Of a DNA stretch of 64,000 nucleotides, positions 1,961-52,190 are shown piece by piece (positions within the stretch are counted from its first letter, which is position 1; the number at the start of each line of letters is the position of its first letter). Below the pieces are notes generated by a model. That model made no database searches. It was not told where the DNA came from and saw nothing but the letters and a program-made list of their open reading frames with translations. The stretch is from Chondrosia reniformis (Eukaryota; Porifera; Demospongiae; Chondrillida; Chondrillidae), in assembly GCA_947172415.1 (NCBI GenBank), contig OX359194.1, forward strand, positions 3,782,001-3,846,000. Reading direction: 5' to 3'. Made by a program: the position numbers and the translations under genes.

Positions 1961-2416
1961 TTTTACTAAAGTTTGTGTTCAATTCTATCTACAATTTTCT
2001 TACTAGAAGGAACGATAGATAGTCTGCCCAATTTGGTTATTAACAAGTATTTCGATGGTTCATAAAACTAGATCACGTCCCACAAACTTGTTAACAAGAA
2101 AAGAGTACTAGCGTGTACACCCTTGTACTCTCGAGCTACAAGCGAACCAAACGAGTGTAGCATAGTAATGTATTTCTAATCACTACTGTATATATATTAT
2201 GTACAAGGTTACGAACAGGAAGCCACCAAAAATTGTTATCATGCATAATAGCAATATAGTACCCTGCATGTGTAGCGAAGCTCTTAACTAAATGAAATAA
2301 ATAATGAAATTTGTGTGTGAATTGAAATGTAGAATAGGCCTTTTTAAAACAGATTCGATGTTCCTCAATGAGAGCAGACAAAAGAGCACAGTCTTACACT
2401 GATATTGAAAATGCTC
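1961..2416. other. Degraded intergenic sequence
   Basis: Contains the likely 5' side of the Tc1 fossil. Around 2200-2260 a stretch resembles the 3' block of repeat family A (GTACAAGGTTACGAACAGGAAGCCA). No gene is supported. Confidence 0.4.
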
Positions 2417-3190
2417 TTAAAATTGACATGATGGAAAGAAGGATGAAAAACAGTGCCACTCACTATCACACGCTGGAATATATTGTCCAATCAGTGGAAG
2501 ATACCGGCCAAGACACCACCACTGATATGCTAGCTGGCTAACCTTATCGAGGGAATTAATAATTGAAGGCTTATTTGATAATTTATGATAACCATAGTCG
2601 AATAAATAAGAAATTGATTGATTTTGCTGGTTAATTGAAAGGAAGTGATTTTCACAGCAATATTTCAATAGCAACTGAATTTCTTTAGCTAAAAGGCCTT
2701 CAAACAGAATATGCATGATGTCTTGTGGAAAACATACACCTTCCTTCAAACCACGTATGAAATTAGGAGCAAGTGTATCTCCTCGCATTGCTAACAAGGC
2801 ACCTCTGAACACTCTGGAACAACCCCAGATTTGGAATACAACCCCTTCTGGACTACAGTGTCTGTTTACAACATTAACAAACTGTTGTATCAATTTCTTG
2901 ATGCCATATTTTCGTAAATAAGCTGTCTTACAAATTGCAAACGGAAAATTGCAATGGAGCTGGGAGCACAAAAGCACAAAAAAGAGCAACTTTGTGCTTC
3001 CTATTTTTTGATCCAAGAGGATTGGTGACTTCTACATCATCATAATACCCAATCAATTGTAAAGCATTTGGATCTTCTGTAAATACGGGATTCTCCTTGA
3101 AACAGTTATATCACAAAGGATATCACCTGAGCTTTGGTGTAGGTCTTCAACCTCAGAAAGCACCTGATCATTGTTCAGAAGCAGTTGCAA
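2417..3190 (-). pseudogene. CACTA/EnSpm-like transposase fragment
   Basis: Reading 5' to 3' on the minus strand, 3110-3016 gives ALQLIGYYDDVEVTNPLGSK. It then runs, with a frameshift, into a 199-residue open frame with CFPQDIMHILFEGLLAKEIQ and LAYQWWCLGRYLPLIGQYIP. The block order (YYDDxExxNPLGSK, then PxDIMHxxxEG, then WxLxRxLPxxIG) is one I recognise from large animal transposon proteins, probably of the CACTA/EnSpm group. The family name is from memory. The remaining core and both ends are absent, and frameshifts interrupt it, so this is a relic. Upstream of 3190 the frame becomes unreadable. Confidence 0.6.
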
Positions 3191-31429: not shown

Positions 31430-33900
31430 ATATAATTATTGGTTAACAACATGAAAAGATGCCATTGGGTTTTCAGTAAATAAAAAGTACAGTGATAACC
31501 TTACCACAAATAACCTGACGGCCTGATTCTTAAATGACCACATTGTCAAAAAAAACAGACGAATGCTGATACAATAAGATTTGGCAAATTTGCCAGAATA
31601 AAGGTACACAGAAGAGCTCGACAAACTGTTTTCGAATCCATCCCTTACCGAAAGAATAAATTCATTACAGTTACGACCAGATTACATTCCCGTTACGTAC
31701 TAACATCCGATCCTTTAACATACCTGTACACGTGTACAATCACCTTACTTCCCGGAAATAATCGTCAGGCTACGCACATAAAAGGGATAATACCATCTAA
31801 TCATGACGCTTTTAAGTCACATGTGATACTCGAAATTTAACGTCATAATCAAAAGCAATCAGGAGATCACCAAGAACTCCTATATTATTAGAAAATGGCG
31901 AAAAAAAGGTTCCAATTTTCTAATGCGCCACAGAAAACCGTCTTTCCACAAATCGTTTGAAGACAGAAAGGTGCCTATTCCCTAGTTGCTAAAACTTTTA
32001 GACGATATGCCCCTAAGATGTATTTATCTACAAGCGCGTTTATGCACTAGCGTAAAATAAAAGAAAGAATAATAATAATAAGAAGAAGAAGAAGAAGAAG
32101 AAGAAAATGAGGAAAACCGGAAGTAGGCCTGAAACCGTTTTACAAACTTGAAGCCTTTATGCGCTCTTGAAAACAGCTTCCCTCAATTGAAATCGTACAA
32201 AAAAGACATATTACGAGTTTAAAAGAGGTAAAAACACATTCGCTGCCTACTTATAAGGTGTTAACCCGTAATACATTGAATACGGCATCCATTTTTTCGG
32301 GCCATCCGTACTTAGAGAGTACCACCATACTCTCTGATAATAGAATCAGTTGTTGTAAATAAAATGCAAGTATCACTATAAGTCTCGTTACTGGAACTAT
32401 ACCATTCACTAAAGCTGCAAGGAAGCGTTGCACCAACTTTAACAGCCTGCCATGGTGCCTAATAAAACAAAGACAATTGGTGAATTACTTCTACAAGGTA
32501 TAAGGATTTTGCAGACTTACGTGTACGTAATAGTCTAAAGAACCGTTTCCTTCGTGAATGGAGCATCATTTCGAGGTTAGCGAGTTCCTTCCAAAAGGTA
32601 TATGCTATAATTGCATTCATAGAATTACCAACGCCTTCACAAGATTTTGGTGGGACTAGGCGATCTTCTCTGTGTAAGATCGTGTTAACCTTGGCTTACT
32701 AAGACTTCGTAGAATTGCCTAACGTACGTCGCCGAACTGATGTAATATGCGTATGCAGTACACTTGTAACACGGTTAGTTTCAATATGTTAACACTGTAG
32801 CCATCATACACTGTAATATTCATTCACGGCTGTTCTGCTTCCTATGGTAACCGGTAACTTAGTTTTTCACGTGACTATTATGCAACAGTTAATCGGTTAA
32901 AAGAAAGAGAAGTGTGCCTTCTTTAAACCCTTCGTTTGCCAATCTTACTACAGTTCGTGATTGATTTACAGGTTAGTATGAATGTACTGTTTATAATAGG
33001 TATATAAATGCAACAAACGTCCTCAGAAAATGTCTTATTTAGGTGAAATTAGTAGTTTTGTAGTAAGCGATTTTCTTTCAATTTCCAGCTTCTACCAGTT
33101 TTTAGATGAATTTTGTTGGTAGCAGCATACTCTTCAAAGTATATATACTTCATTTGTAATTACTGGTTTTGTGGCCTTTTGGTTTGTTAAAGCTATGGTC
33201 AAAGTACACTAGTTGATGATGAAATCTTAATTTATGATGCTCTTTACTAGGTTGATTAATATATAGATTAATATGGCATTAAATGAATGCAACATTAGTT
33301 TATTAACTGTACTCCTGTGTTGAATCAGTGGCCTTTCCTTAGCAGCATATGGACAAGTTTGTAGAGCATGCTCCTTTAACATTGCTTTAAGCTTCTGTGC
33401 TGGATTTTTAATGTTGGAATATGTTCTCTCTAGAGAGTTAAAAATGTTATGTATAGATTCTGCACCATGCTCTGCATGTTAACAAAGGCTACAGTGCCAT
33501 GTTGTCATCTGGGGAACAGAATGGTCCTCAAGCATGTGCATTTTTGGGGTAATACGTTCATGCGGGAAAATCTGCCTAAAGCAATTCAAAAACAGATCTA
33601 CATCTTTTCCTACAGATATAGACATATAGTGCAAATTAATGTACATGTTATGTGTTTCCTATCAAATATTAGCTTTATGGTACTGGTGTTTACCAAAGTA
33701 TAGTTTATTGATTGATTAGTTAATGAGAGAGGATAGTCAGAATTATGTGCATATAAATGAGCCCAGTGATTGCTATCTATTTGCATGCATGGATAATATG
33801 AGAATCAGCAGCAACTTACTGAATATTTAAATGCCTTCATCAGACATTGAAGTGGACTTAAAATAGGTATTGTGGCATTCAGAAAAAAGGAAAAGCAGCT
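31430..33900. other. No recognised gene
   Basis: Long stretch without coding motifs. It holds an AAT/AAG microsatellite at 32068-32104 and several short frames. Around 33905-33946 a 21-bp unit (AAATTTCTGTGCATTACATAG) is directly duplicated, just before the RTE-like LINE. Confidence 0.5.
32068..32104. repeat. (AAT)n(AAG)n microsatellite
   Basis: Four AAT followed by about eight AAG units. Confidence 0.9.
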
Positions 33901-33912
33901 GTATAAATTTCT

Positions 33913-35181
33913 GTGCATTACATAGAAATTTCTGTGCATTACATAGAGCCTTCCCGAGGTGTGAGAAAACGGTGGAGCAGTAGTCCTCTGCGTCGGGTAA
34001 ATAGTCTTCCATTTGAAGCAAGGATGCCAGCACGCTTTGGAAACGAAAGAACAATATATAGGCTAGGAACATGGAACGTCAGATCTGTCAAGAATAAGGA
34101 AACTGAGTTGATTCGGGAGATGGAACGGTATAACCTCGATGTTCTGGGAGTCAGCAAAACAAAAGCGAGGGGGAACGGGATGACGGCGATCGATGGGGCT
34201 ATTTATGTGTATGCAGGGGTGGCAGAAGGCAGAGCAAAAAGTGGAGTGGGCATAGTGATAGCAGAGCGATGGGCAGATTGTGTGAAAAGCTGGAGGTACG
34301 TCAATGAAAGGTGCGTAACGCTGAGAATGAAGATCGCGGGGGTGTGGCTGACACTGGTGCAGGTCCATGCTCCAACAGATGATAGAGACAACGACATCAA
34401 AGATGATTTCTTCTCAGTACTGCAGGAGGTGTTAGATAAGGCTCCCAGAGGCGATAAGGTGGTAATCATGGGTGATCTAAATGCAAGGTTTGGCAATAAT
34501 GTGACTCGGTGGAAGGTGTAATTGGAAAGCAGGGTAAAGCTGGAGAATTACAGTAGGAGAAGGTTACTGAGTTTCAGCACAGAGAACAGTTTCAAGATAC
34601 TGAACACCTACTATGAGCATAAGGAGATACATAAACACACATGGATATGGCCAGGGAGAGGCCTACAATCCATCATTGACTATTTCCTGATAAGAGGAGA
34701 TATGAAGAGGAATGTGAATGATGTGAGGGTAATCAGAGGGGCAGAAATAGGCAGTGACCACCACCTAGTACTCATGAAACTAAAATTGTGTGGAAGAGTC
34801 CAAGTCAGAAAGGTGGAAAAGCAAAGTAGACTGAGGAGTGAAAGGTTAACAACTGAAGAGGGCAAACTATAATATCAGATCAGACTAGGGCACAAGCTGA
34901 ATGAAGCAAAATGGACGAATGGCAGTGATGTGGAAAAAATGTGGGAAGAATTTAAGAACATTGCCATAGAGATAGCAGAAGTTGTGTGTGGGAGAATAAA
35001 GTACGGAAATGGAAACCAGAGAACTAGATGGTGGGTCAAAGAGGTGGAATTATCAGTTAGGAAGAAGAAATTAGCATTTAAAAGATGGCTACAACTAAAA
35101 ACCACAGAAGCAAAGGAAGAATATCTGAGAGCAAAGAGAGCGGCAGGACATGAAGTTAGAAAGGCAAAAAATGATGAATAG
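33913..35181 (+). pseudogene. RTE-like LINE endonuclease region
   Basis: Endonuclease motifs: RLGTWNVRSVKNKE, LDVLGVSKTKARG (Lys for the usual Glu in the SET/SEx motif), KSGVGIVIAERW, VQVHAPTDD, VVIMGDLNARFG and, after a frameshift and TAA at 34519, IDYFLIRGDMK and EIGSDHHLVLMKL (catalytic Asp-His). The 34930-35181 frame continues through QRTRWWVKEVELSVRKKKL. The plausible natural ATG is at 34024 (MPARFGNERTIYRLGTW). Endonuclease would nick the target DNA for target-primed reverse transcription. Confidence 0.88.
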
Positions 35182-36575
35182 AGAAGATTAGGTGAATCAC
35201 TGCAGGGCGACTATATACACAATCAGAAGAGATTCTGGGCAAACATTCGATCAGCAGTGAAAGGCACCCATGAAGTGGGAAGAATACGTGATGAAAGCGG
35301 ACAGGTACTGTGTGAAGAAGAAAAGGTCAGGACGAGGTGGAAAAACTACTTTGTCACACTGCTAGAGAGTGAACAGACCAACGATGCTCAGGTACCTGAA
35401 TACGGGAAGGCACCTAGCCAAGCAAACCAGGCTGCAGAATGTACAGATAAGATCAGTGTGGAAGAGGTGCAGGAATGCATTAGGAGGCTGAAGAACAGGA
35501 AAGCACCTGGAGTATGTGGAATAACAGGAGAAATGCTTAAGGCTGGTGGAGATGCAGTGGTCCAGTGGTTACACAAAATCTTTTGTATGGCCTGGGAGAG
35601 TGGAACGGTGCCTGCAGATTGGAGGAAAGCACAAATTGTCCCAGTATACAAAAAGGCAGTAGAACACAGTGTAAGAACTACCGGGGTATTAGTCTACTAA
35701 ATGTTCCAGGGAAGGTGTACGCTACTGTATTGGATAAGAGGATACGAGCCATCACTGAAGAGAGAGTACTAGAAGAACAGGGTGCATTCCGGAGGCAAAG
35801 AAGCTGCATTGATCAGTTTTTCACAGTGAGACAACTCGGGGAGAAGATAATTGAGAAGAACAAAACAATGAACATGGTATGCATAGACCTAGAAAAACCT
35901 TTGACAGAGTGAATAGGGAGTTGCAATGGCTGGTGGTAGAGAGATATGGTGTCAGCGGGAGGCTGCAGGAAGCAGTGAAGTCTCTGTACCTAAGAAGTGA
36001 AGCATGTATACGGATACAGGGGCAAAATTCAGACTGGTTTGGTGTAGAGAGAGGGGTGAGACAGGGGTGTACCTTGTCGCCTTGGCTTTTTAACTTATTT
36101 CTGGACAACATAGTGAGGGAGGCAAGGGAGAGTTTCCAGGGTGGTGTGCAGTTGGAAGCAAGTAAGGTACAATTTCTGATGTTTGCGGATGACCTAGCAG
36201 TAGTGACTGAAAAGGGGGAGGACATGAAAAGAAATGTTGAAGTACTCAATGAAGTAATGACAAAGTGGAAGATGAAGATAAACTGGGAGAAGACCAAGGT
36301 GCTGGTAGTGCAGAGGGGAAGTGGCACATGTCACATAGTTGTGGATGGAGTTGAGGTGGAAGGAGTACAGACAGCAAAATATTTGGGGGCCATGTTTAAT
36401 GAGGAAGGATCATGCGATTATGAGATTGAGAACAGGATTGGGGCAGCAGCAAGAATGGTGGGGGCTTTAAGAAGTGAAGTTATTGAACACAAAGAGCTGA
36501 GCAAAGCTACGAAGCTAAGAGTTATCAATGCCATGGTTGTACCAACTCTACTGTATGGGAGTAAGACGTGGACCT
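35182..36575 (+). pseudogene. RTE-like LINE reverse transcriptase, 5' part
   Basis: Motifs in order: RRLKNRKAPGVCGITGEML, WRKAQIVPVYKK, then (frameshift) NYRGISLLNVPGKVYA, MVCIDLEKP (first catalytic Asp), then (frameshift) FDRVNRELQWL, RQGCTLSPWLFNLFL, FLMFADDLAVV (catalytic Asp pair), INWEKTKVLVV and TAKYLGAMFNEEG. It is cut at LLYGSKTWT where the gypsy LTR begins and resumes at 40742. Confidence 0.9.
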
Positions 36576-36788
36576 TGTGGAGGACTCTTAGTAACTGTTA
36601 TTCTACATTAGGCATTACATGGTTACTATTAGTAGCATGACATTACGTGTATTGTTATACTATTATTAGCCTTGATTACTGCTGTACTATTTTTGGGACA
36701 CCATGCCTTTTGTTTTGAGTCCATTGTTCTTTAATTGATTGAGTTACAGTGATCAAAGTGTTCTCATTTGCTACCGAGCTCCACTACA
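36576..36788 (+). repeat. 5' LTR
   Basis: Starts TGTGGAGGACTCTTAG and ends GAGCTCCACTACA. The inner short inverted ends TGTGG and CTACA are imperfect. Five substitutions separate it from the 3' LTR. Confidence 0.95.
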
Positions 36789-36803
36789 TGGTATCAGAAG
36801 TGG
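36789..36803 (+). promoter_or_regulatory. Primer binding site, Met-tRNA type
   Basis: TGGTATCAGAAGTGG starts one base after the 5' LTR. TGGTATCAGA is the usual complement of initiator Met-tRNA in LTR elements. Confidence 0.7.
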
Positions 36804-36809
36804 CCTACC

Positions 36810-37512
36810 ATGACTAGCCTGCGCCTGGAACCGCCCTCTGCTTTCAACTTTCGCACTCCAGACGAATGGCCTCGCTGGAAGAAGCGTTTCGAGCAGTTCC
36901 GCCTTGCTTCGGGCCTATCAGTCGAAACAGAGGAGAAGCAAGTCTCCACGCTCCTGTACTGCATGGGTGAGGATGCCGACGATACCCTCACCTCTACGCA
37001 CCTTACTAATGGACGAGCGCAAGGAGTACGTGTCAGTGATCGCGAAGTTGGACGGATTCTTCCAAGTCCGACAGAACGTCATCTTTGAACGGGCGAGATT
37101 TAACCGCTGCGTTGAGAAGGAGGGAGAATCGACGGAGCAGTTTATCACCAGTCTCTACAACCTGGTGGAAACCTGCGCTTTCGGTGACCTCAAGGACGAA
37201 ATGATCCGCGACCGAATCGTTGTTGGAATTTGGGATCAGGCCTTATCCGAATGCCTCCAAACGGTGGCAGACCTCACCCTGGAGAAGGCCAAAACCCTTG
37301 TCAGGCAAAGGGAAGCTGTACACGACCATCAGCTCACCCTGAATGGCTCTTCAAAGGTGGAGAAGTCGCTGGATTCGGTGCAAAAGCAGGCTTTCAACTC
37401 CAGGGGCAAGGGTCAGACTTCAAAGAAGAAGGGCCAGGCTGCATCCAAGAGCCCAACAACTAAGTGCACCAGATGTGGTCGGGGAGATCTGCGATCCGTC
37501 AGAGTCTCTGGA
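36810..37512 (+). pseudogene. gypsy gag
   Basis: Begins MTSLRLEPPSAFNFRTPDEW at 36810 and contains WKKRFEQFRLASGL. A frameshift near 36990-37010 moves to a frame with ERARFNRCVEKEGESTEQFI and TCAFGDLKDEMIRDRIVVGI, typical of Mag-like gag. A zinc knuckle starts (TKCTRCGRG at 37462) but is cut short, with the protease region following after a shift. Acts as the nucleocapsid precursor in an intact element. Confidence 0.85.
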
Positions 37513-38753
37513 TGACTTTGCCTTTCTGAACACGATTGGTTCAGATTGTGACGCATTCTGGACATGTATCATCTCAGTCAGTGGGCAGGACATACCCTTT
37601 AAAGTCGACACTGGAGCGGAAGTCACAGTTGTCTCGGAAAAGTACGCCAAGATACTCTCACGAGACCTGAAGCCACCCTCCAAGCGACTTCATGGACCAG
37701 CCAGCCAGCCCTTGAGTGTCTTGGGTGAGATCCAAGCCACACTGACATACAAGGATAAGCAAGCCACTCAGACGATCTTTGTGCTACGCAACCTCCAGCA
37801 CAACCTGGTAGGCTTACCAGCTATCCGCGCCCTGGATATCCTCACCAGGATCAGCGCCATCTCTGCGCCTATCAAGGAGCAATTCCCTTCTCTGTTCACC
37901 AGTCTGGGCACATTTCCTGGCAGTAGTTATGACATGCAGCTAAAGCCAGATGCCAAACCATTCGCGCTCTTCACACCACGGAATGTGCCACTGCCACTGA
38001 GACAGAAGGTCAAGGACGAGCTCACTCGGATGGAGGCTTTAGGAGTCATCGCCCCAGTGGAGGAGCCAACCCCCTTGGTGTTCAGGCATGGTAGTTGTAC
38101 CGAAGAAGTCCAATCAGGTACGTATTTGTGTTGACTACCGTGCACTGAATGAGAGTGTGTTGCGAGAGGTGCATCCGCTTCCTACAGTGGATGACACTTT
38201 AGCCCAAATGGCAGGAGCCACTGTTTTTAGCAAGCTCAACGCTAACTGTGGCTTCTGGCAGAATCCTCTAAGTGAGAGTTGCCAAAAGCTCACAACTTTT
38301 ATCACCCCATTTGGCCGCTACTATTTTAAGCGGCTACCATTTGGCATCTGCAGTGCTCCAGAGCACTTCCAGCGTAGGATGAGCGCAATCCTTGCAGGCC
38401 ATGACGGGGTGCTCTGTCACATGGACGATGTGTTCATATTCGGACGAGACCATGAGCATGACGCCCGTCTCCACGCCGCCCTACACACCACCCAAGAAGC
38501 TGAAGTCACCCTCAACCCCGAGATATGTGAGTTCAACAGAAAGAGCATCACCTTTCTGGGCCACGTCATTAGTGAGCAGGGCATTTCCGCTGACCCCAGC
38601 AAGACTCAGGCAGTGACCAACATGGAGAGGCCAAAGAACATCACTGAGCTGAGGAGATTTATGGGCATGGCAAACCAGCTAGGGAAGTTTTCTCCTAAGC
38701 TAGCAGAACTCTCCCAGCCACTTTGGGCACTCCTCAGTTCTCGAGCAGCATAG
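37480..38753 (+). pseudogene. gypsy protease and reverse transcriptase
   Basis: Aspartic protease: FKVDTGAEVTVVSEKYA at about 37600. Then MQLKPDAKPFALFTPRNVPL leads into RT. A frameshift lies near 38090. RT motifs: RICVDYRALNESV, VFSKLNANCGFWQ, FITPFGRYYFKRLPFG, VLCHMDDVFIFG and FLGHVISEQGISADPSK. In motif A the catalytic Asp is replaced by Asn (KLNAN for KLDAN), so this RT could not polymerise. The frame ends at TAG 38751-38753, before the RNase H. Confidence 0.92.
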
Positions 38754-39233
38754 GTGTGGGGTCCAGCACAGGAAGAGGCCTTTAATGCAATCAAAGCAGA
38801 GCTGGCAAACCCCGCTACACTAGCATTGTACGATCCAGCCACCCCCACAAAGATCTCTGCTGACGCCTCTGCCTACGGATTGGGTGCCGTGCTACTCCAG
38901 CAACATGCTGACCTTTGGCAACCAGTAGCCTTTGCCTCAAGGTCTATGACTGAAACCGAATGACGGTATTCACAAATTGAGAAGGAGGCCCTGGCACTCG
39001 TATGGGCATGCGAGAAATTTGGCGACTATGTGATTGGCAAAGACATCGCTCTGGAGACAGACCACAAGCCACTAGTGCCCCTCTTGGGCAAGACCAACTT
39101 GGACTGCCTACCACCGAGAGTGTTGAGCTTCCGGATTCGCTTGATGCGGTTCTGGTATACCATCAGTCATGTTGCAGGCAAACAGCTGTACACTGCAGAC
39201 ACACTCTCCAGAGCACAGGTTGGCTACCCCTGA
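38754..39233 (+). pseudogene. gypsy RNase H domain
   Basis: Motifs ISADASAYGLGAVLLQ and PVAFASRSMTETE, then TGA at 38961-38963. It continues in frame through QIEKEALALVWACEKFGDYV and LETDHKPLVPLLGK to DTLSRA, the normal end of RNase H. Degrades the RNA strand of the hybrid during reverse transcription in active relatives. Confidence 0.9.
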
Positions 39234-40503
39234 CAGCACACACTTGGCAGAAGACAGCCAAACTGAGCGTTTTGTTGCTGAGATTGTCTCACTCCTTCCA
39301 GCCAGTGCCGACTGTCTACACAAATATCGCACAGCACAGCATAACGACCCCACCTGTGCAGAGCTCATCGCCCTTTGCAAGTCAGGATGGCCCTGCAAGG
39401 ACCGACTTCCTGAAACCATCTTGCCCTACTGGCCAGTGAGAGGAGAATTGACCCTCCACAATGACCTCCTCCTACGTGGAAGGCGCATTGTTGTACCTGT
39501 GAGCCTTCAAAAGGAGACACTGGACAAGATTCACTCAGGTCATCAAGGGATCCACAGATATCAGAGCCGCGCCTCGATGTCCGTGTGGTGGCCAGGCGTG
39601 AAGCAGCAGGTGGAACAGCTGGTCCAGCACTGCCCTGCGTGCACCAAGGTTCTTGCAGCCCCAAGACAACCTATGTTAACCACACCTCTACCTGAGTACC
39701 TGTGGCAGCGAGTTGCTTCTGATTTGTTCGAACTGAACTAGAAGTCCAACATACTCGTTGCAGACTACTTATCCCGATATGTGGAACTACAGTCGCTGAC
39801 TAGTACAACATCAGCAATTGTCATCAGTGTGCTGAAGTCAATTTTTACACGACATGGCATTCCAGAGACTTTCGTGAGCGACAATGGACCACAGTATATC
39901 TCCCAGGAAACGAAGGACTTCGCACAAGAGTACAACTTTGTACACATCACGAGCAGCTCGTACTACCAGCAAAGTGACGGACTAGCAGAAAGAATGGTAC
40001 AGACCATGAAGTGCCTCATTGGAAAAGCATCTGACCCCTACTTGGCCTTGTTGGCTTACTGGAGCAAACCATTGCCTTGGTGTGGCCTCAGCCCAGCACA
40101 GCTACTGATGGGACGACCACTGAGGACCGATGTTCCTCAGCTCCCTGCCACCCTCACACCTGAATGGTCATATTTAACTGAATTTTGTGAGAAAGAGAAG
40201 GTGGAGAAATTGAAGCAGAAAGGCAACTACAACCGACGCCATCGCGTGAGGGATCTTCCTGAACTATCAGAAGATAAGTCTGTTTGGGTTCACACCCAGA
40301 ACAGGACCGAGCCTGGCCGAGTGATCACCTCTGCTGATGCTCCAAGATCATATGTTGTCGAAACAGAATCTGGAGACATTCACAGAAACCGAGCCCATCT
40401 CACCTCACGACCACCAAGCAACAGCAGCGGGTCAACCACCATCAATGCCCCATCTCGTGCTGCCACTCGCTCCCAAACGGGATACATGTCAGACCCCCGA
40501 TGA
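39234..40503 (+). pseudogene. gypsy integrase
   Basis: The zinc-binding HHCC part reads GHQGIHRYQSRASMSVWWPG then HCPACTK. The catalytic core has ADYLSRYVEL (first Asp, after a TAG at 39739-39741), VSDNGPQYIS (second Asp) and SDGLAERMVQTMK (Glu). WCGLSPAQLLMGRPLRT follows, and a basic tail ends at the TGA at 40501. All three acidic residues of the DDE core are present. Separate 39169-39741 and 39781-40503 frames show only point stops in this part. Confidence 0.92.
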
Positions 40504-40516
40504 GACTCTCCTACTG

Positions 40517-40528
40517 GAGAAAGGGAGA
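40517..40528 (+). promoter_or_regulatory. Polypurine tract
   Basis: GAGAAAGGGAGA directly precedes the 3' LTR and would prime plus-strand synthesis. Confidence 0.8.
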
Positions 40529-40741
40529 TGTGGTGGACTCTTAGTAACTGTTATTCTATATTAGGCATTACATGGTTACTATTAGTAGCATGACATTACG
40601 TGTATTGTTATACTATTATTAGCCTTGATTACTGCTGTACTATTTTTGGGACACCATGCCTTTAGTTTTGAGTCTATTGTTCTTTAATTGATTGAGTTAC
40701 AGTGATCAAAGTGTTCTCGTTTGCTACCGAGCTCCACTACA
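40529..40741 (+). repeat. 3' LTR
   Basis: Starts TGTGGTGGACTCTTAG and ends GAGCTCCACTACA. Identical in length to the 5' copy. Confidence 0.95.
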
Positions 40742-40945
40742 GACCCTACAGAAAAGACACAGAAGTAAGATCCAGGCAATGGAGATGAGGTACCTTAGGA
40801 GAGTAGAAGGTGTGACCAGAATGGACAGATTAACAAATCAAGACATTAGTAGAAGGCTGGAGGTTGAAGCAGTTTTAGAAGAGGCAGATAGGAAGAAGAA
40901 TGAGTGGAGGAAAAAATTGAGGAAAGGCCTCAGGAGAGGTTGGTG
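40742..40945 (+). pseudogene. RTE-like LINE C-terminus, resumed after gypsy
   Basis: Directly after the 3' LTR the sequence reads TLQKRHRSKIQAMEMRYL and RRVEGVTRMDRLTNQD, then a basic tail ending RKGLRRGW at 40945. Joined to 36575 it restores the canonical YGSKTWTLQKR context, which proves the insertion order. Confidence 0.92.
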
Positions 40946-41172
40946 AGAAAAGTGTTTGAGGAAGAGGTGTGTGGTAAACGACCAAGAGGATGGCCAAGAA
41001 AGAGATGGAGAGACGACACTTAATGATTTTGCCTATATATTAATATGCAGAACACTTAATGTCCCTATAGTAACTGAAACTTTTATAGTATTTTTACTGT
41101 ATGTAACAGCGACCTCCTACTGAGGAGATGAGCTACATGATGAATTGATTGATTGATTGATACATAGAGCCT

Positions 41173-41600
41173 CCTCTTTTATTTCCGCAGCAATATGCTG
41201 TTCAGCCACATTAGAAAAGATGCTGCACAATCGGTTAATGTTTTCACGCTACATAACAATGATTAGTTGTTAAGTTTTAATATGATCTATGTAATCAAAT
41301 ACGTAATCACCTGACAACATTTGTGCACATGATTTCCCACAAAAGTACCACTAAAATAAGCCTGCCTTTCAACACCAATTAAAGAGAGGATTTTATTTAA
41401 TGCTTGGATACATGGTCCTGTATTGCGGCTCAGCTTACTACCTTGTAATGATTTTAACTTTTCCTTCTAAATTAAGAATATATAATATATATATACGCAT
41501 ATATATATACTGATAGATGATTTGATCATCATCAAATGATATATATATTATGTATCAAGTAGTGTACATTTGACTAGCTAACTAAAAGATTAGCTACTTT
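41173..41600. other. No recognised feature
   Basis: AT-rich region with TATATA runs between the LINE and the transposase-like gene. ATATATATAC repeats lie at 41480-41510. Confidence 0.4.
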
Positions 41601-41620: not shown

Positions 41621-43707
41621 TCAGTAAACAACTGCTTGGTCACTGGCTTCTTCGTCAACATCCATCGCCATCCACAGGGCTATTTCTTCAGCTTTCCTAG
41701 CATTGTCCTCTAGTTTACTTATCTCTTTTTCATATTGCCTGATGGATTGTAGAGTAGTGACATATTCTGTAAATTCATTTGAAGAATTCCCTGACATGTA
41801 TCCACTTTCTGCAGTTTTAACATCCAGTTGGTGACAGGCATTTTCCAGCATCTTATATAGCTTATTAAAAATACCCAAACTTACATGTAAAGCTGGAATT
41901 GCCACCTAATATACGTGTAATAATATAAGACGATATCATAATGATTGGTTAGTATATGTTTCAAATATTTAGTGTATAAGCCATTTTGTTACTTGATGTA
42001 TAGGAATGTTTAGTATGGCTTCTTCTATAACATTATTGTGTTGCTTTGCTTGAGTATGTTTGGATCCTGCTGCAGCAAATTGCTGAAAGTCACTTGCTAA
42101 GGTTGACAAAGTCCTGGGACTAGCACATTGTCTTTCTGATCTAGGCTTCTGCATCTTCTTACTCTCAATGTTTCACCACAGACAGCAGTGCCTTCCTGAT
42201 AGATTAGTGCATGGCATGTAGTAATTCATTATTATATTTATATAGAGATCTATAATCATCTCCTTACCATTTGCACCAGATATTCCATACATTCGTGATA
42301 AATATTCATAGTCCCCAAAATGAAACAGTCTTATTTGTTTTCCACTATGTTTAATACACATATTTCTGGTGCATATACTCATATGCATTACCTTATATGT
42401 GTGATCACTCACTGCCACATAGTTCCTTGAAGAAATTCTATGTCTTCTCTGTATTGTGATAGGGCAAGTCTTAAGTTTGGTCTTGAATCGGTGGCCCGGA
42501 AAATGCAGAATACAAAAGTGTTTTTTGATGAATTGTGATGTTCTGTGTTGACAATGTGTTTAAGTGGTATGCCATATATACCTTAAACAATGTATATTAC
42601 CATATATAATTGCAATAACCATTGCTTACCTGAAAACAACTCTTAAATGTCCCACCACCTTTATCTCCTCCTATTTTACCCAGATTTCTTCTGATGGAAT
42701 ACCACTGTGCCAGATTAAATACATCACAAATTTAATGTAAGTATATATATGTTGTCTATAAAGAGAGAGTTTAAATGTATCTTACCTGACCCCCAGTTGG
42801 TAAAGTTAATGTAGTTGTTGTTGCAAAATTGCTAGAGGACTTCATCATCCTTTTGACAAGATGTGTAGCTACTTGGCGCTCCACTGTATTAGGTGTCTTA
42901 GTCAACGGGGCATTTAAAACTTGGCGTAAACTAGGTGTGGCACAAGTTAATACTTCATTGGAATGACTAGATATACCTTCCATATCTTCAGATGTGCTTG
43001 TAAATAAGCTGGCTGATGCTGGAGTACGTGATGAGCACAAAGTATTAAAGTGTTCAATTGAAGATCACTTTCATCGGTAAATGGTAGTTCAGAATCAGTT
43101 TCATTGATTGTAAAATTTGCTATTTCAGCATCTTCATATGGTGGAATGACTCCAGCAAGATTGGAAAGAGATTCTGTTGAAGAGGGTGAAACTGGTGGAT
43201 TGGTTGACTCAAGAGATGGAGGTTTTATTTGACTTGTTTTATGTATATTGTGTCCTTCAAGGTGAGTATGTAAACTACCCAGAGTTGCATCTGCTTTGCA
43301 TCCTTGCACAGGGCAGATTACTGGCAACTCTTTATAAATCGATAAAATAATTGATGCTGGCTTTGTGATGCCACTTTCTACTATAATATAGCTACAAATG
43401 GGACACTTTGGTTCAGGTGATGAGCAGCAGTAGTTAATGGCTTTAACTTGGCACTCTGCACATGTAATGTGATTGCATTGTAATTGCAGTGGGGATATCA
43501 GTATTTCTAGGCATACTGCGCAAGTAGAGTGGCTGCCATTTCAGATGTTGATGCTTTTGGGGTTAAATATTGCACTTAAGTTGGTTTGTATTGTGGGACA
43601 CTGGCAGTTGTTTTTTCTTGTATTTGTAATTAAAGTCATCCTTGTTCTTAATTCAACAGATGTATGCTCAGCATTAACTTTGGTGGTCTCCCACCTCTTA
43701 ATTGCAT
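41621..43707 (-). pseudogene. Multi-exon transposase-like gene with RAG1-type RING and zinc finger
   Basis: Minus strand, from an ATG at 43707 (MQLRGGRPPK, an AT-hook-like start; a one-base shift then leads into KVNAEHTSVELRTRM). A RING finger at 43521-43394 reads CAVCLEILIS, LQCNHITCAEC and KCPICS. It is followed 26 residues later by a Cx4C...H...H finger (CPVQGC, LHTHLEGH; 43317-43251). The cysteine spacing and the gapless 26-residue linker match RAG1 as I know it. After a poorly conserved stretch come several short exons: 42704-42630 (WYSIRRNLGKIGGDKGGGTF, probable first catalytic Asp), one ending at a GTGAGT donor near 42415, one with FHFGDYEYLSRMYGISGANG and a GTAAGG donor, then RHCCLW (zinc-binding CxxC, second Cys lost to TGA), then a GTAACA donor and a TATTAG acceptor into VAIPALHVSLGIFNKL and a coiled coil ending at TAA. 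Defects: two frameshifts and two stops. One junction (near 42590) is unresolved. Confidence 0.65.
43394..43521 (-). other. RING finger coding segment
   Basis: C-x2-C, then C-x-H-x2-C-x2-C, then C-x2-C pattern over 43 codons, open in one frame. A TGA lies 11 codons upstream. RING domains bind two zinc ions and usually act as ubiquitin ligases or dimerisation modules. Confidence 0.8.
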
Positions 43708-45185
43708 GTTGACAGAACTAAACATATTTCTGTGCATATATATTTATATTTTTATGAAGTGGCAATTAGATGACTTGTTTAATATGGCAGGAAGTTCTAC
43801 AGGATATACTTTGATTGTTTTAAATTTATGAGTGCTATATATCTTAGCTAGTTACTAAAGTTAAAGCACACCCACAGTCAGAAGCAAGTGATTGTAAAAG
43901 GATGTTTTCCAGAATCTGGCACTACATACCTTTTACTAGTGTTTGTATATTGTGGAGTCTCAGAATAGCAGAAACATTAGGACATGCTACATTGTCCTCT
44001 GTAGGCACTTAGTTATGTATAAATGAAGTACTAAGGTACAAATCCTCCAGAGTATGTTAGCCTGTTTGTGAATATATATAGTCCCAATTGATACCCGGAA
44101 AGTGGCAATTATAAAAATGGCTACACTTAGAAAGTAGTCGACAAGAAAATAACATACTTTCAAAGGAAGTATATGATAAGCATCCATTTGCAATTAACTG
44201 CATAAAATTATACATCAAGCAGCCTTAATTATTGAATCATTAAAACAGCCTCTGCAAATTTCTTAAATGTCTCCTTTGGTTCCTCAGGTTGGTCAGCAGA
44301 GAAGGAATATGAAATGTTCCTTGAAGAGAAACTATTCTACATCCGTTCAGTCACTCGTGATCTCATGCAAAGCTGACAGGAACATCTCCAAAGCACTTCC
44401 CATTGGAGGAGGGCATGTATTAGAATATATAGAAATAACTAATTTCTCTTCTATTAATATATAACCTGTACATAACCGGTTGGTATCTTTTATTCTCCTT
44501 TTTGTATTATATTATAATAATAATATGAATGTGCAATATATAATATGATATATATCATGCATTACTAATAGTCTTGACTTGTATAACAGCATCAGCTAAA
44601 TCTATGCTTTCTTCAGTACCTACAAAAACGTATTATACTTACGTTATGTCTTGTAATAAAAGGGAAAGAAATGTTGTATGAACACGTAGTTTGAAAGGAG
44701 ATTTCTCGGCTAAATCGAAAGGCCACAAAAAGACAGAAGGTAAACCCATAGCAATGAATACTAGCTATTATTTGATATCTAAATGGAATTTATACAAAAC
44801 GTTATCCTCACCATAACTAAACTCAGTTTATTGTGTGGCACATCTGATGTACAAATACCTCAGAATCCATTTTACAGGAGTATCATTAATATTATTCATA
44901 GTTATTTTAAGGCATTCCAAATGACTTCACAGTTAAAAGCAACGGTCACTGTGATAACTTACGTAAACGTTTGGCAATTTGTGCTAACAAACCGGTAAGT
45001 AAACTTTTGTGAACTACTAGTTTACACAATAATGGAATAAGGATTTCTTCTAACTGCGTCGAACTTATCTTTGTAAAGGTTCATCTTTCGACTTTTAGAG
45101 CGTCTAGAGACGCAGTTTTTTCCGATTCTTCTGTCTGGCATAGTTTACACAACATTGTGAACTGTGTAAACTACTTTATTTTTTG
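43708..45185. other. No recognised gene
   Basis: AT-rich. At 45000-45170 there are repeated TAGTTTACACAA and GTAAACTA motifs on both strands around AGAGCGTCTAGAGACGC, suggesting a decayed foldback element. No coding sequence is supported. Confidence 0.4.
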
Positions 45186-45190
45186 CCGTG

Positions 45191-45415
45191 ATAAAGATTT
45201 TCTACAATAATAGTGAAGATGTAGGAATGGCACAAAAAGCACAGGAACAAGAAAGGGATGTTACACAGTGAATCATTAATTATACATGAATCCTACAAGA
45301 AAGGGTGTTGTATGATTTATGCATAAATAATGCTTCAATATGTAACATCCCTTTCTTGTTTCTGTGCTTTTTGTGCCATCCCTACATCCTCTACTATTAG
45401 AAAAGGTTTATTGTT
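45191..45415. mobile_element. Palindromic MITE (family C), copy 1
   Basis: Arms run from TTTCTACAATAATAGTGAAG and GATGTAGGAATGGCACAAAA into GCACAGGAACAAGAAAGGGATG on the left, with the inverse on the right (CATCCCTTTCTTGTTTCTGTGC and TTTTGTGCCATCCCTACATC). Arms of about 75 bp enclose a short AT-rich core. No coding capacity. Confidence 0.88.
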
Positions 45416-45685
45416 CTCTTTATTATATTAATAATTTATTGGTGTATTTATTTACATTCGATTACCTTAGTATATTGTAACTTGTACTGTATGTATGTAC
45501 ACAGATCAATCAAGATGACTCATATATATGAGTCTGCAATTAATGAAGCAGAGGAGCAACATATCCTAACTGGTTTGGAAGTGATCAATAAAGGTGTGTT
45601 ATTGCTCCTAAAACATTTGCGGAGCTAGTCAGAAATAAGAAATAAGAAATATGTACTTCACAGAAGACACTGTTTGGCTATAAGT
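45416..45685. other. No recognised feature
   Basis: Spacer with short open frames only. Confidence 0.4.
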
Positions 45686-45689
45686 GCAG

Positions 45690-46085
45690 GATAAGGGTTG
45701 AATACAACCCACACATTTTCCCGGCTGTATTCTTTTGTAGTAGCAACAGCGATAACGCTATTATTGAGTATGATGGTTTTCATGGTCCCAAAGTCAAGGC
45801 CTCAATAAAGTCGCCATTTTAATGACTTCATATTCAGTTGAAGATAGCAAAACCAAAATGGGTTTAAATACAATCAAATTCCTCCATAAAAAATACAGAA
45901 ACGTGAAAACAATAAAAATTTCTACAATAATAGTGAAGATGTAGGGATGGCACAAAAACACAAAAACAAGAAAGGGATGTTACACATTAGCTATGCATGA
46001 ATTCTCCATGCAAGGGTGTTGTATGATTCATGCATATAAAGCTAATGCTTCAGTGCTTCATTATTTAACATTATAAGTCAGGTTA
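45690..46085 (+). repeat. Repeat B copy 2 joined to a family C MITE half
   Basis: 45690-45890 matches repeat B at 3830-4010. It is followed at 45915 by TTTCTACAATAATAGTGAAGATG, GGCACAAAAACACAAAAACAAG and AAAGGGATGTTACACA, the left half of MITE family C. The right inverted half is missing or replaced. Confidence 0.75.
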
Positions 46086-49040: not shown

Positions 49041-49177
49041 CCTTTTGTTGGGACTATACAGGCGATCTTAGGCTCAGGGAATGTGACCATAAGACACATA
49101 GATGCAGCGCTTTTGATATTCTTGGAGATATACCAGAGTACGTTGCAGCAGTGTAGAATGATTATGTAAGCATTGCT

Positions 49178-49920
49178 GTGACTGCTGCATATACAACTAG
49201 TCATAGCCATTATACTGCTATATTTCAGCACTTTGATGGTAGGACATTGAAGAATTATGCATTTATTATAAGTATCATTGATACTGGTATGCGTACATTC
49301 ACTTTCCAGAGGCTGCACTGGTTTAGATGTACACTGCAGTTGCTACTACACAGAAGACGTTATTGCAAGCATAATAACACTTTAACTAAAGTGCTTAGTT
49401 TGGTATTGCTCCTTGGAGGAGAGATAGAATCAAACCCCGGTCCTTCAAAGGAATGCCTTAGGAAACCGGCCAAAAAACAAAATTATCTATTGCAAAGAGA
49501 CAAAATATTGAAAGAGCAAAGGGTGGATTAAGCAGAGAACCCAAACCAAAACAATGAGCATCCAAAGCAAGCTCTGAAGCCAAGAAAGCTGCATCTACAG
49601 CATAGTATTCTACTAATCCTGAAAGCTGCCACTAAAGTAAACTATTTTGCCAATCCTGAAACCAAGAAGGCTTCTGCTAAAGTGCATTACTCAGCCAAGT
49701 CAGAAGCCCAGCAAGCTGCCTCTAGAAAAACGTTTTCTGCAAATCCAGAAGCTAAGTGGGCTGCTTCTAAAACAAAGTACTGTTGTAACACTGAATCCAT
49801 GAAAGCTGCCATTAGAGTGAGTTACAAATGCAAACCAAGTGTGGCAAAAGCAGCCTCCAGAGCAAACTACATTAAAAGACGATGGGTGAAAATAGCTGCA
49901 TCAAAGGCAAATTATTAACA
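49178..49920 (+). pseudogene. 2A-bearing leader and Lys-rich repeats of Helitron-like element 2
   Basis: The 117-codon frame 49178-49531 reads TLTKVLSLVLLLGGEIESNPGP at residues 68-89, a hydrophobic stretch followed by GEIESNPGP, which keeps the ExNPGP core of 2A. It stops at TAA 49529. Repeats of the type KAASRANY, KKASAKVHYSAKSEAQ and KAAIRVSYK follow in shifted frames to 49918. They match the 15-residue units of element 1 but are much more diverged. Confidence 0.75.
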
Positions 49921-50063
49921 GAAAAAGGAACATGTGAACCTTTATTGCAGTGGTAAATATGCTACCAAAGACATATACTAGACATCTGTATGCAGTGAAG
50001 TTACAAAAAAGCTATTTTCAAAGCCTTCCTAGAAACTGCTTTTGTTGAAGGCAAGCAAGGAAG

Positions 50064-50760
50064 ATGCCTCCACCTTTCAGTTGTATATCTACTATTCATA
50101 CACTGAATCAAAAGCAGTCTACAGTTTATGACATTGAACAATATAAACTACTTCGTATAAAAGAGAATGCACTGGATAATTGCCAGAAATTCCTGGATGT
50201 TATGTGTTTTCTTTATCTATTTCCAAGTGGTACATTTGGTGAGTTTCACATACGTGATGTGAAGCTCTCCTCCAGTGAGTATGCCAACTCTAAGCTGCTT
50301 ATTAAGGATTCTGGGTTCCAAAAGAACCCTCAGTCTGTATATTTTCTCCTGTGGCAGAAAGAATTACGGCAGCTCTCTGCAGGGGTATACAATTTGATGA
50401 AAAGAACACAACAGCAAAGAATGTCTGTTCAGCTGTTCCTAGACAAGGTGTCACATACTATTGAATCTCTTGAAGTAAATGTGTCAACAATATTCCAGTC
50501 CATTAGAGGTACAAAGCAGTACTGGTACTTGAGGTCCGGTGAACTGCGTTGCATGCTTCGAGAGTTGGGTACTACTACCCTATTTCACACCTTCAGTTGC
50601 ACTGAATATGAGTATCCAGAAATTAAAAATTACCTGTAGAAGGTGAATCAGGTACCTAAGAACTATCTAGTTGGAAAGCTGTGCTGTGAAGATCCCATGT
50701 CAGTGTTGAGAAAGGTTTCTCTAAAATTCCATGCAATGTTCAATACTGTCATACTGAAAT
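50064..50760 (+). pseudogene. Helitron-like N domain
   Basis: The 191-codon frame to 50639 has FPSGTFGEFHIRDVKLSSSE, VYFLLWQKELRQLSAGVYNL, FQSIRGTKQYWYLRSGELRC and ELGTTTLFHTFSCTEYEYPE. This is the block that precedes the HUH nuclease in Helitron proteins. After TAG at 50637, VPKNYLVGKLCCEDPMSVLR and FHAMFNTVIL are still recognisable, then the sequence jumps to helicase. The HUH motif itself is absent. Confidence 0.85.
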
Positions 50761-52190
50761 GTTGAACGTAGACCAAGCACGTGTCTTTAAACGCATTTCT
50801 GGACACCTTCTTCACCAACAGCAGCATGAGTCTGGAGTGTGTGAATGCTCACAATTGCAACAACTGCATATGTTTGTTAGCAGAGTTGGATGGAATGGGA
50901 AAGTCTTTCCTCATTGAAGCCATCAGAGCTCAGGTGGCTGCAATCTGGAATGACAAGCATGAAGCACTTCTCTGTGTTGTAGCTGCACCAACAGGGCTCG
51001 CAGCCTTTAATGTTTTTGGTGTCACTCTACATCATTTATTTCAGTTACCCATTGAGCATGAAGGGAAAGAAGCTGGCTATTGGGGACTGCCACGAGACTC
51101 ATTAAAGATAATGAGAACAACACTTCGAGATGTCAAACTTTTTGTTATTGACGAAGTGTCCATGGTATCCTGTCTCAACCTGGCCTACCTTAATTTGCAC
51201 CTGGAAGAAGTTTTGGGACTGACAACTGGTTTGGGTCAATTAGTATTCTCTTTGTGGGTGATTTTTGCGACTTCCTCCTCTCAATGATGCACCTGTGTTT
51301 GATAAACTGAATACCAAAGCAGTTTTATGAAAGCTAGGTTGCATGACTTCGGTTAACATATGGAAGGAAACTATAGTATATGATGAGCTGACCATCAATG
51401 AGCGTCAGAAAAAGGGCACACAGTTCTGTGGACTTTTGGATGAAGTCTGATGTGGTTGTGTGTCTGAAGAATGTATTAGGATTCTGGAAGAGAGAGTTAT
51501 CCAGAGTCCTATAGCAGGTAGGTTTAAGGAACTGATGCAGTCTGGTCAGTCACCTGTGTGCCTATTTTCTACACGAAAGGCATGTGAAGAATTCAATAAT
51601 AAAATGCTCAGCAGGTTACAGTGTAAGATGGTTGAAATTTGCTACACTGAAATATGGACGAAACTAAGGGCATGCATAAATGGAGTAAAAAGAAGCAAAA
51701 GAGCTAACAAAGACTGTCCCTAACTGCTGGTTTAGAAGCTGTGCTTCATATTGGTGTTGGAGCACAAGTCCTGTTGTGCAGAAACACTAATGCAAGCTTG
51801 GGGTTAGTTAATGTTGCACTTAGTACTGTTGTGGCCATTGGCGCAAACAAAGTTACACTGAAGTTTGATCATGTGAGTACAGAGTATCAAGTTTAAAAGG
51901 TTAAGAGTAGATTTATTGTCATGAGAAGGGTGTACATTTACAGGGTACAGTTTCCACTGATTTTGGCTAATGCTGTAACCATCCACCAGTGTAAAGGCCT
52001 TTCACTCGACTGTGCCATGATGGACCTCTCTGATCAGGTTTTCAGTTCTGGCATTGCATATGTTGCACTATCACGTGTAAGAACACTTGATGGGATTCAC
52101 CTGGTTGCCTTTACCAAAAGTCAATTATGGTTAGTTTCAAGTTTCTGCTGGAAATTAATTGGCTACGACAGTTGCATAGACCAAACTTGA
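50760..52190 (+). pseudogene. PIF1-like helicase of Helitron-like element 2
   Basis: MLNVDQARVFKRISGHLL at 50760 starts the helicase. A frameshift at the Walker A leaves GMGKSFLIEAI. Then AAPTGLAAFNVFGVTLHHLF, LFVIDEVSMVSCLNL (Walker B), FVGDFCDF in a shifted frame, SPVCLFSTRKACEEFNNKML, LTAGLEAVLHIGVGAQVLLC, NAVTIHQCKGLSLDCAMMDL and [20 protein letters not shown] (motif VI). At least five frameshifts or stops. Confidence 0.88.

Follow-up and report, generated by a model that had tools for sequence, protein, structure and literature searches.

Unlike ends in a 12/23-like arrangement on a sponge transposon, very probably of Chapaev type, with a RAG1-type N-terminus

Introduction

Chapaev transposons, reportedly treated by Kapitonov and Jurka in 2007, and N-RAG-TP of Aplysia, which Panchin and Moroz are said to have described in 2008 as entirely RAG1 N-terminal-like sequence, are among the mobile elements that recall RAG1. 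In two Chapaev subgroups, according to the available part of Kapitonov and Koonin (2015, PMC4411706), a Chapa domain is followed by a RING, as in RAG1, the Chapa domain corresponding to the importin-binding part of RAG1; the transposases of these subgroups are described there as no more than distant relatives of other Transib transposases. The hallmarks of Chapaev, in the available text of a further study, are 3- to 4-bp duplications, CAC/GTG termini and C(2)C, LH and H(4)H motifs (PMC4079192), and that of the wider clade, again in the accessible portion of the source, is C(2)C plus H(3-4)H (PMC12730594).

Transib and ProtoRAG elements have CAC termini and bipartite ends, which in some are unlike at the two sides, features shared with the element described here. 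As far as the accessible parts of the sources go, Transibs, some of which have 12/23 TIRs, differ from it in lacking the RAG1 N-terminus, and ProtoRAG, with 27/31 spacers, differs in having RAG2L and 5-bp duplications (PMC8355894, PMC8289069, PMC7204232). Outside V(D)J recombination, the available part of a review records 12/23 asymmetry for a few Transibs only and for no RAG-like element (PMC8355894). An element with a RAG1 N-terminal module bears on the origin of the 12/23 rule.

Results and discussion

The window copy and its extent

The window, by which we mean the whole 64,000-nucleotide stretch of Chondrosia reniformis DNA analysed, contains a dead transposon copy, very probably of the Chapaev type of cut-and-paste DNA elements (CMCT/RAG-like DDE clade). 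The earlier note had placed a RAG1-type RING and finger on a transposase-like gene at 41621..43707. The motifs it named were all found in the letters and ORFs of the minus strand, and the interval proved too narrow, as the element spans 32825, its 3´ terminus, to about 44790, with the gene on the minus strand. The terminus (32825..32867, minus strand) is a 23-type end that starts with CACGGCTGT, is homologous to the 3´ ends of sister copies A1 and A2, and includes an inner block, AACTTAGTTTTT, at 32856-32867 (minus strand), with CTTAG from element base 34.

The exons, all on the minus strand, were placed by ORFs, alignment rows and comparison with the protein of sister copy B1. The last core exons (33308..33916; tblastn and alignment rows) encode the H(4)H motif (ITPKMHMLEDH) and the final acidic residue (GAESIH) and are matched by B1 residues 958-1108 at E 4.5e-42 (tblastn, sister-copy protein query). 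They are preceded in the gene by a core exon matching B1 residues 877-928 (41311..41466; sister-protein comparison), a core exon with ALHVSLG, the LH motif (41621..41905; ORF and alignment rows), and an ORF (42173..42559; ORF and alignment) that contains the second-D exon (GDYEYLSRMYGISGANG) together with the beginning of the C(2)C exon, in which CCLW is followed by a stop in this copy. The first-D exon (KIGGDKGGGTFK) lies at 42674..42745 (B1 protein match and alignment rows), with GGDKGGGTF at about 42.67-42.72 kb, and an exon end with LPTGGQ and a VERxVA..KRM stretch, matching B1 residues 367-420, at 42786..42938. The RAG1-type RING, 26-residue linker and Cx4C..Hx3H finger occupy 43250..43540 (ORF, PDB searches); the RING STCAVC..CNHITCAEC..CPIC, the 26 residues, CPVQGC and LGSLHTHLEGH can all be read, as had been reported, in the ORF at 42947-43540.

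The window copy is damaged: its 5´ end is gone, it has internal deletions, and its gene is split by nested retrotransposons. Compared with A1, about 825 bp (L040 3439-4263) are missing at 43720..43738, a loss that took out the RAG1_imp_bd/Chapa domain exon, and the copy also lacks about 857 bp at 42713-42716 as well as 502 bp at 44270. In the 5´ part of the element (44270..44790, minus strand) homology stops at 44790, leaving the copy without the outer 119-130 bp and hence without the 12-type end. The later insertion that divides the gene (33948..41160; sequence and ORFs) is presumably a non-LTR retrotransposon, in pieces at about 33948-36575 and 40742-41160 and flanked on both sides by duplicated TACATAGAGCC. 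Nested inside is what we take to be a Ty3-type LTR element (36576..40741, plus strand), with LTRs (36576-36788 and 40529-40741) 97.7% identical to each other and flanks GACCT and GACCC. The outer retrotransposon carries a GATTGATTGATT tail.

Sister copies, termini and target duplications

We searched the genome (117 Mb, 15 contigs) and found at least 11 loci that carry the element, in diverged groups. The N-terminal unit matched 33 times at E up to 1. Eight loci, the window among them, stand out by the strongest of these matches, each with a best stretch at or below E 2.0e-19, and three moderate loci (6.9e-6 to 1.6e-5) constitute group D. The core exon too has close copies elsewhere in the genome. 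By whole-locus comparison, group A consists of the window copy, L040 (A1), L041 (A2) and L042; group B comprises L033, L034 and L035 (B1-B3), whose pieces are 94-99% identical, group C is L036 (C1), and group D is L037-L039 (D1-D3), about 99% identical. What A and B share is limited to patches at about 70-86% DNA identity. Measured element lengths range from 6.5 kb (D1) to 9.1 kb (B2), the fuller copies being about 6.5-9 kb. Two further candidates, C1:642991 (RING-only match) and C7:810794 (no match), were rejected as family members. Searches of viral and genome contig collections (non-eukaryote) with two peptide patterns gave 90 and 28 stretches, none of them confirmed.

We also noted a diverged, degraded member at L060 (C5:4489000-4496900), with pieces at 25-60% protein identity to B1; a scan for ends of L060 and L061 found none. 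At another diverged locus, L032, GIY-YIG-like and reverse-transcriptase-like ORFs (2216-3143, minus strand) lie downstream of a RAG1_imp_bd exon and resemble what we take to be an inserted Penelope-type element.

Homology between copies stops abruptly at CACGGCTGTT.. on both sides of the element. Eight copies retain both ends, with CACGGCTG-type termini in inverted orientation, and six of these have an exact 4-bp target duplication: AGCT (A1), TCTT (A2), TACG (B1), GGGG (B2), AAGT (B3) and CACG (D3). With equal base use assumed, this count has a chance probability of about 1e-13. The duplication of D2 is 5 bp (TTTGT), and D1 has none. CAC starts 18 of the 19 ends read, the remaining one (A2 3´) having CAT; several ends were located by the string CACGGC and the remainder by the stop of homology. 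The 3´ end of group C was scanned for in L057 and not found. The loose scan used for L060 and L061 has background, with 11 matches in about 50 kb of window sequence elsewhere.

Several exons and a history of purifying selection between groups might be expected of a domesticated host gene, a reading that we consider extremely improbable. It is rejected on the dispersed, near-identical copies (about 94-99% within A, for A1/A2, and within B and D), their sharp termini and their target duplications, and the window copy is itself broken. The sister copies with ends, duplications and DDE-type motifs bear out instead the earlier suggestion that the locus is the fossil of a mobile element whose RAG1-like N-terminus is joined to a very diverged core.

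The RAG1-type N-terminus

Against PDB, the RING-finger unit of the window copy has zebrafish RAG1 as its top match (1.8e-10), then mouse RAG1, with BRCA1 at 1.3e-6 and TRAF6 at 4.7e-5. A four-member RING-finger profile of diverged copies widened the interval (RAG1 7.1e-16, TRAF6 2.2e-10, BRCA1 4.9e-10). As the earlier note had stated, the vertebrate linker is also 26 residues, counted by eye in the PDB alignments of mouse and zebrafish RAG1. On these sequence comparisons, the likeness of the unit to RAG1 is beyond chance.

It might still be a generic TRAF/SIAH-type RING with a fortuitous likeness, since Pfam zf-RAG1 reaches E 0.016 on the window copy, under the cut-off, and matches one of four diverged copies at E up to 1, whereas generic RING models match all four. 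This we regard as most improbable. PDB sequence and profile searches both put RAG1 first, several orders ahead of TRAF6 and BRCA1, and in these searches TRAF, BRCA1 and TRIM all lie further from the unit than RAG1 does, as had been supposed. In addition, the spliced sister proteins B1 and D1 match Pfam RAG1_imp_bd, another domain specific to RAG1 (6.5e-12 and 6.7e-10, over the curated cut-off), upstream of the RING. In a genome search with this model, nine of the 11 loci are over the cut-off (the window copy and L042 being the exceptions), as is C4:5078997, and a match at C2:7386246 is under it. B1 and D1 also match DUF1280 (2.2e-12 and 7.9e-15, over the curated cut-offs) and RING models.

A profile of the region after the finger gave no RAG1 match in PDB, and hence no nonamer-binding domain was detected. 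A single-sequence fold of the RING unit (mean pLDDT 45.8) was set aside. By analogy with RAG1, a dimer is the probable state of the N-terminal zinc module, which may serve as an E3 ligase or nuclear-import region. The sister copies present a RAG1-type N-terminus in a whole coding context outside RAG1 itself.

The transposase gene and its core

ORF comparison yields one multi-exon transposase gene, with a colinear exon chain between groups. Spliced models made with a simple GT/AG chooser encode 1108 aa (B1) and 848 aa (D1), with exon borders that are script-chosen and approximate, two D1 junctions being without a GT/AG pair. The order along the gene is the RAG1 importin-binding/Chapa domain, the RING, the RAG1-type finger and a DDE-type core. 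CLWC, ALHVSLG/GLHLSLG and the H(4)H positions are common to both models, and their invariant residues include D196, D266, C285, C288, H355, H612, H617 and E638. The mouse RAG1 counterparts, counted on the alignment, are D600, D708, C727, C730, H795, H937, H942 and E962, and we take the roles of D600, D708 and E962 to be as generally held. H795 is an active-site residue of RAG1 in the available text of one source (PMC7204232). The intervals along these residues are 108/19/3/65/142/5/20 in RAG1 versus 70/19/3/67/257/5/21 in B1; thus the D-C-C spacing of 19 and 3 is that of mouse RAG1 D708-C727-C730, and H-x4-H is followed by E after 21 residues here versus 20 in RAG1. Where other copies were aligned to B1 by script, some motifs come out damaged or wrongly read, in C1 at GGDK, in A2 at GDYE and C(2)C, and in B2, D2 and D3 at GDYE.

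Sequence searches gave no corresponding match to the RAG1 core. A two-sequence core profile found no RAG1 or Transib chain in PDB at E up to 10, and the Pfam RAG1 core model had no match in the genome, in a search in which no control gave a signal. An hhalign comparison of the core with mouse RAG1 gave a probability of 1.7% and P 0.03 in local mode, a score reached by one of 150 shuffles, and nothing in global mode. We therefore limit the likeness of the core to motif order and spacing, as judged from sequence. The earlier reading of the core as DDE-type stands as to the motif set and its RAG1-like order and spacing, and not as to demonstrable RAG1 sequence homology.

dN/dS between B1 and A1 or A2 is 0.15-0.31, and between B1 and the N-terminal part of C1 0.31, at dS 1.4-1.7, from which it follows that selection acted on the protein during the divergence of these groups; the comparison covers A, B and C, and dS is undefined for the C1 core. 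Between B1 and B2 dN/dS is 0.60-0.82, indicating little constraint on recent copies. With regard to RAG2, D1 has 895 and 720 bp beside the gene with no ORF of at least 65 aa wholly inside, and this compact element has no room for RAG2. The gene flanks of B1 are 2489 and 1678 bp and contain ORFs of 68-83 aa; group B may have a multi-exon RAG2L.

Comparison with known systems

All the Chapaev features looked for were found, namely a 3-4-bp duplication, 5´-CAC ... GTG-3´ termini, DDE with C(2)C/LH/H(4)H motifs, and a Chapa domain followed by a RING, and on this basis, rather than on a tree, the element was filed as Chapaev-type. The likeness extends to the RAG1-type zinc domain before the RING, the diverged RAG1-like core and the mostly 4-bp duplications, the comparison having been made with descriptions of Chapaev rather than with Chapaev sequences. 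A RAG1-type N-terminus on a diverged core, the combination that headed the earlier note, is therefore not new, having been published for Chapaev, of which it is the known make-up in the available part of the source (PMC4411706). With N-RAG-TP, as far as the accessible description goes, the element shares its nature as a mobile element with a RAG1 N-terminal-like protein, and it differs in that the sponge element shows a DDE-type core as well as both of its ends.

With vertebrate RAG1 the element shares the N-terminal zinc domain, the RING, the 26-residue linker, the finger and the D-C-C and H-H-E spacing. It differs from RAG1/RAG2 in a core too diverged for sequence searches, in the absence of space for RAG2 in D1 and in its mostly 4-bp duplications. 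A RAG-like (RAGL/ProtoRAG) or Transib element proper that has lost RAG2 would also have CAC termini and could have a RAG1-type N-terminus, and 12/23-type asymmetry is known in a few Transibs according to the available part of a review (PMC8355894). We find such an assignment very improbable: a RAG1 core was found by sequence neither in the genome (Pfam model, search without a control signal) nor, together with Transib, in PDB, and a 5-bp duplication is present in only one of eight copies.

A 12/23-like arrangement of the inner block

The striking feature of the element is its ends, which lie outside the interval of the earlier note. Counting from the first C of the element end, we found the start of the CTTAG-type block, with CTTAG lying within AACTTAGTTTTT or a similar sequence, at position 23 in eight of ten 5´ ends (A1, A2, B1-B3, D1-D3) and at 22 in both group C ends; at the 3´ ends it is at 34 in six of nine (A1, A2, the window copy, B1-B3) and at 33 in D1-D3. 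The block of the B1 5´ end reads TTTAG, and position 23 was read by eye in B1 and B2, where an earlier CTTAG, at 13, falls inside the spacer. Measured from the 8-base CACGGCTG to AACTTAG, the spacer is 12 bases at one end (11 for group C) and 23 at the other (22 for group D), and the 12-type end is upstream of the gene in all ten read. RSS nonamers occupy bases 20-28 of the 12-RSS and 31-39 of the 23-RSS, so that in groups A, B and D the block of the element shares this register to within one base and, as in vertebrate RSSs, lies about 12 or 23 bp away from the heptamer. It differs from the RSS in being AACTTAGTTTTT, not ACAAAAACC.

Across the genome, an end pattern with 30 spacings allowed had 13 sites, with free lengths of 12 (2), 13 (7) and 24 (4) only, and the reversed-pattern control had none; the 13 sites are related copies, not independent events. 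We relied on the longer end pattern, which catches 12 of the 19 ends read plus L059, because the first end pattern gave 18 matches and 6 in its reversed control. At L032, TACGGCTG, 12 bases and AACCGAG occur about 600 bp upstream of the RAG1_imp_bd exon; as the loose scan has background, this is only suggestive of another 12-type end.

Two loci with unusual ends were seen on the same contig. L036 has two same-direction 12-type ends, at 1857 and 3412 (C13:4186656 and C13:4188211), about 1.55 kb apart and 84% alike over 306 bp, a duplicated or nested 5´ end. L058 has an isolated 23-type end at 72 (C13:2088421), with CTTAG at 34 and a spacer unlike those of the other groups. The 1.2 kb read there has no transposase homology, and the end perhaps belongs to another family or a non-autonomous copy, or is due to chance.

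Do the unlike ends have a role in pairing?

The inner block sits about one helical turn deeper at the 3´ (23-type) end than at the 5´ (12-type) end, and for this reason we propose preferential pairing of unlike ends. A transposase dimer would bind the inner block, cut at the terminal CAC and preferentially pair a 12-type with a 23-type end, in the manner of RAG on 12- and 23-RSSs, and entire elements would be excised as a result. We give this mechanism, with its block binding, CAC cutting and 12/23-like end choice, roughly an even chance.

A Chapaev-type transposon in which the offset has no role in pairing, and is an inherited layout of motifs bound by the transposase or another factor, is a substantial possibility, a little short of even. 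Consistent with it, other motifs (CACGTGA and ACGCAA) are also common to both ends at differing offsets, and the block is T-rich, which the RSS nonamer is not. Furthermore, in a shuffle test within single elements only B passes (0/1000), A (157/1000) and D (545/1000) failing on their own, and the 23-type spacers of A and B are alike at 13 of 23 positions, so that these groups are not fully independent; against D, 5-10 of 22 positions are alike. Speaking against an inherited layout, the identical block is the top segment shared between the two ends of an element in A, B and D (offsets 11, 11 and 10), the 12-base spacers of these groups have only 2-5 of 12 positions in common, and A and B are separated by a coding dS of about 1.4-1.7. 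The explanation as a whole, a Chapaev-type transposon with 12/23-like pairing of its ends, appears to us evenly poised, given that the saturation estimates cover A and C against B alone and that the A and B 23-type spacers are so alike.

The register also sets the element apart from described Chapaev transposons: no report of 12/23-type ends in Chapaev was found in the accessible parts of the open literature searched, a scope with Repbase Reports and the Transib paper outside it, and such ends may be new for Chapaev. That a 12/23-type rule operates, without RAG2, in Chapaev transposons with a RAG1 N-terminal module is a bolder claim, and we think it doubtful. If true, the one-turn asymmetry and its link to the RAG1 N-terminus would be an old property of shared RAG1/Chapaev ancestry, and the asymmetry of V(D)J signals would not be a vertebrate or RAG2-dependent invention. 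With unlike ends in V(D)J register on a transposon that has a RAG1 N-terminus, the rule's origin becomes accessible to tests on one enzyme and a small set of end substrates.

Other elements in the window

ORFs at 49157-52190 contain a PIF1-like helicase fragment (RTTLRDVKLFVIDEVSM.., VALSRVRTL), upstream of which a GGEIESNPGP stretch resembles a 2A-like peptide; the ORFs resemble a Helitron-type element. A pair of similar stretches around AATAGTGAAGATGTAGGxATGGCACAAAAA.. lies at 45190-46050; inverted copies occur close by, and the stretches resemble small non-autonomous elements.
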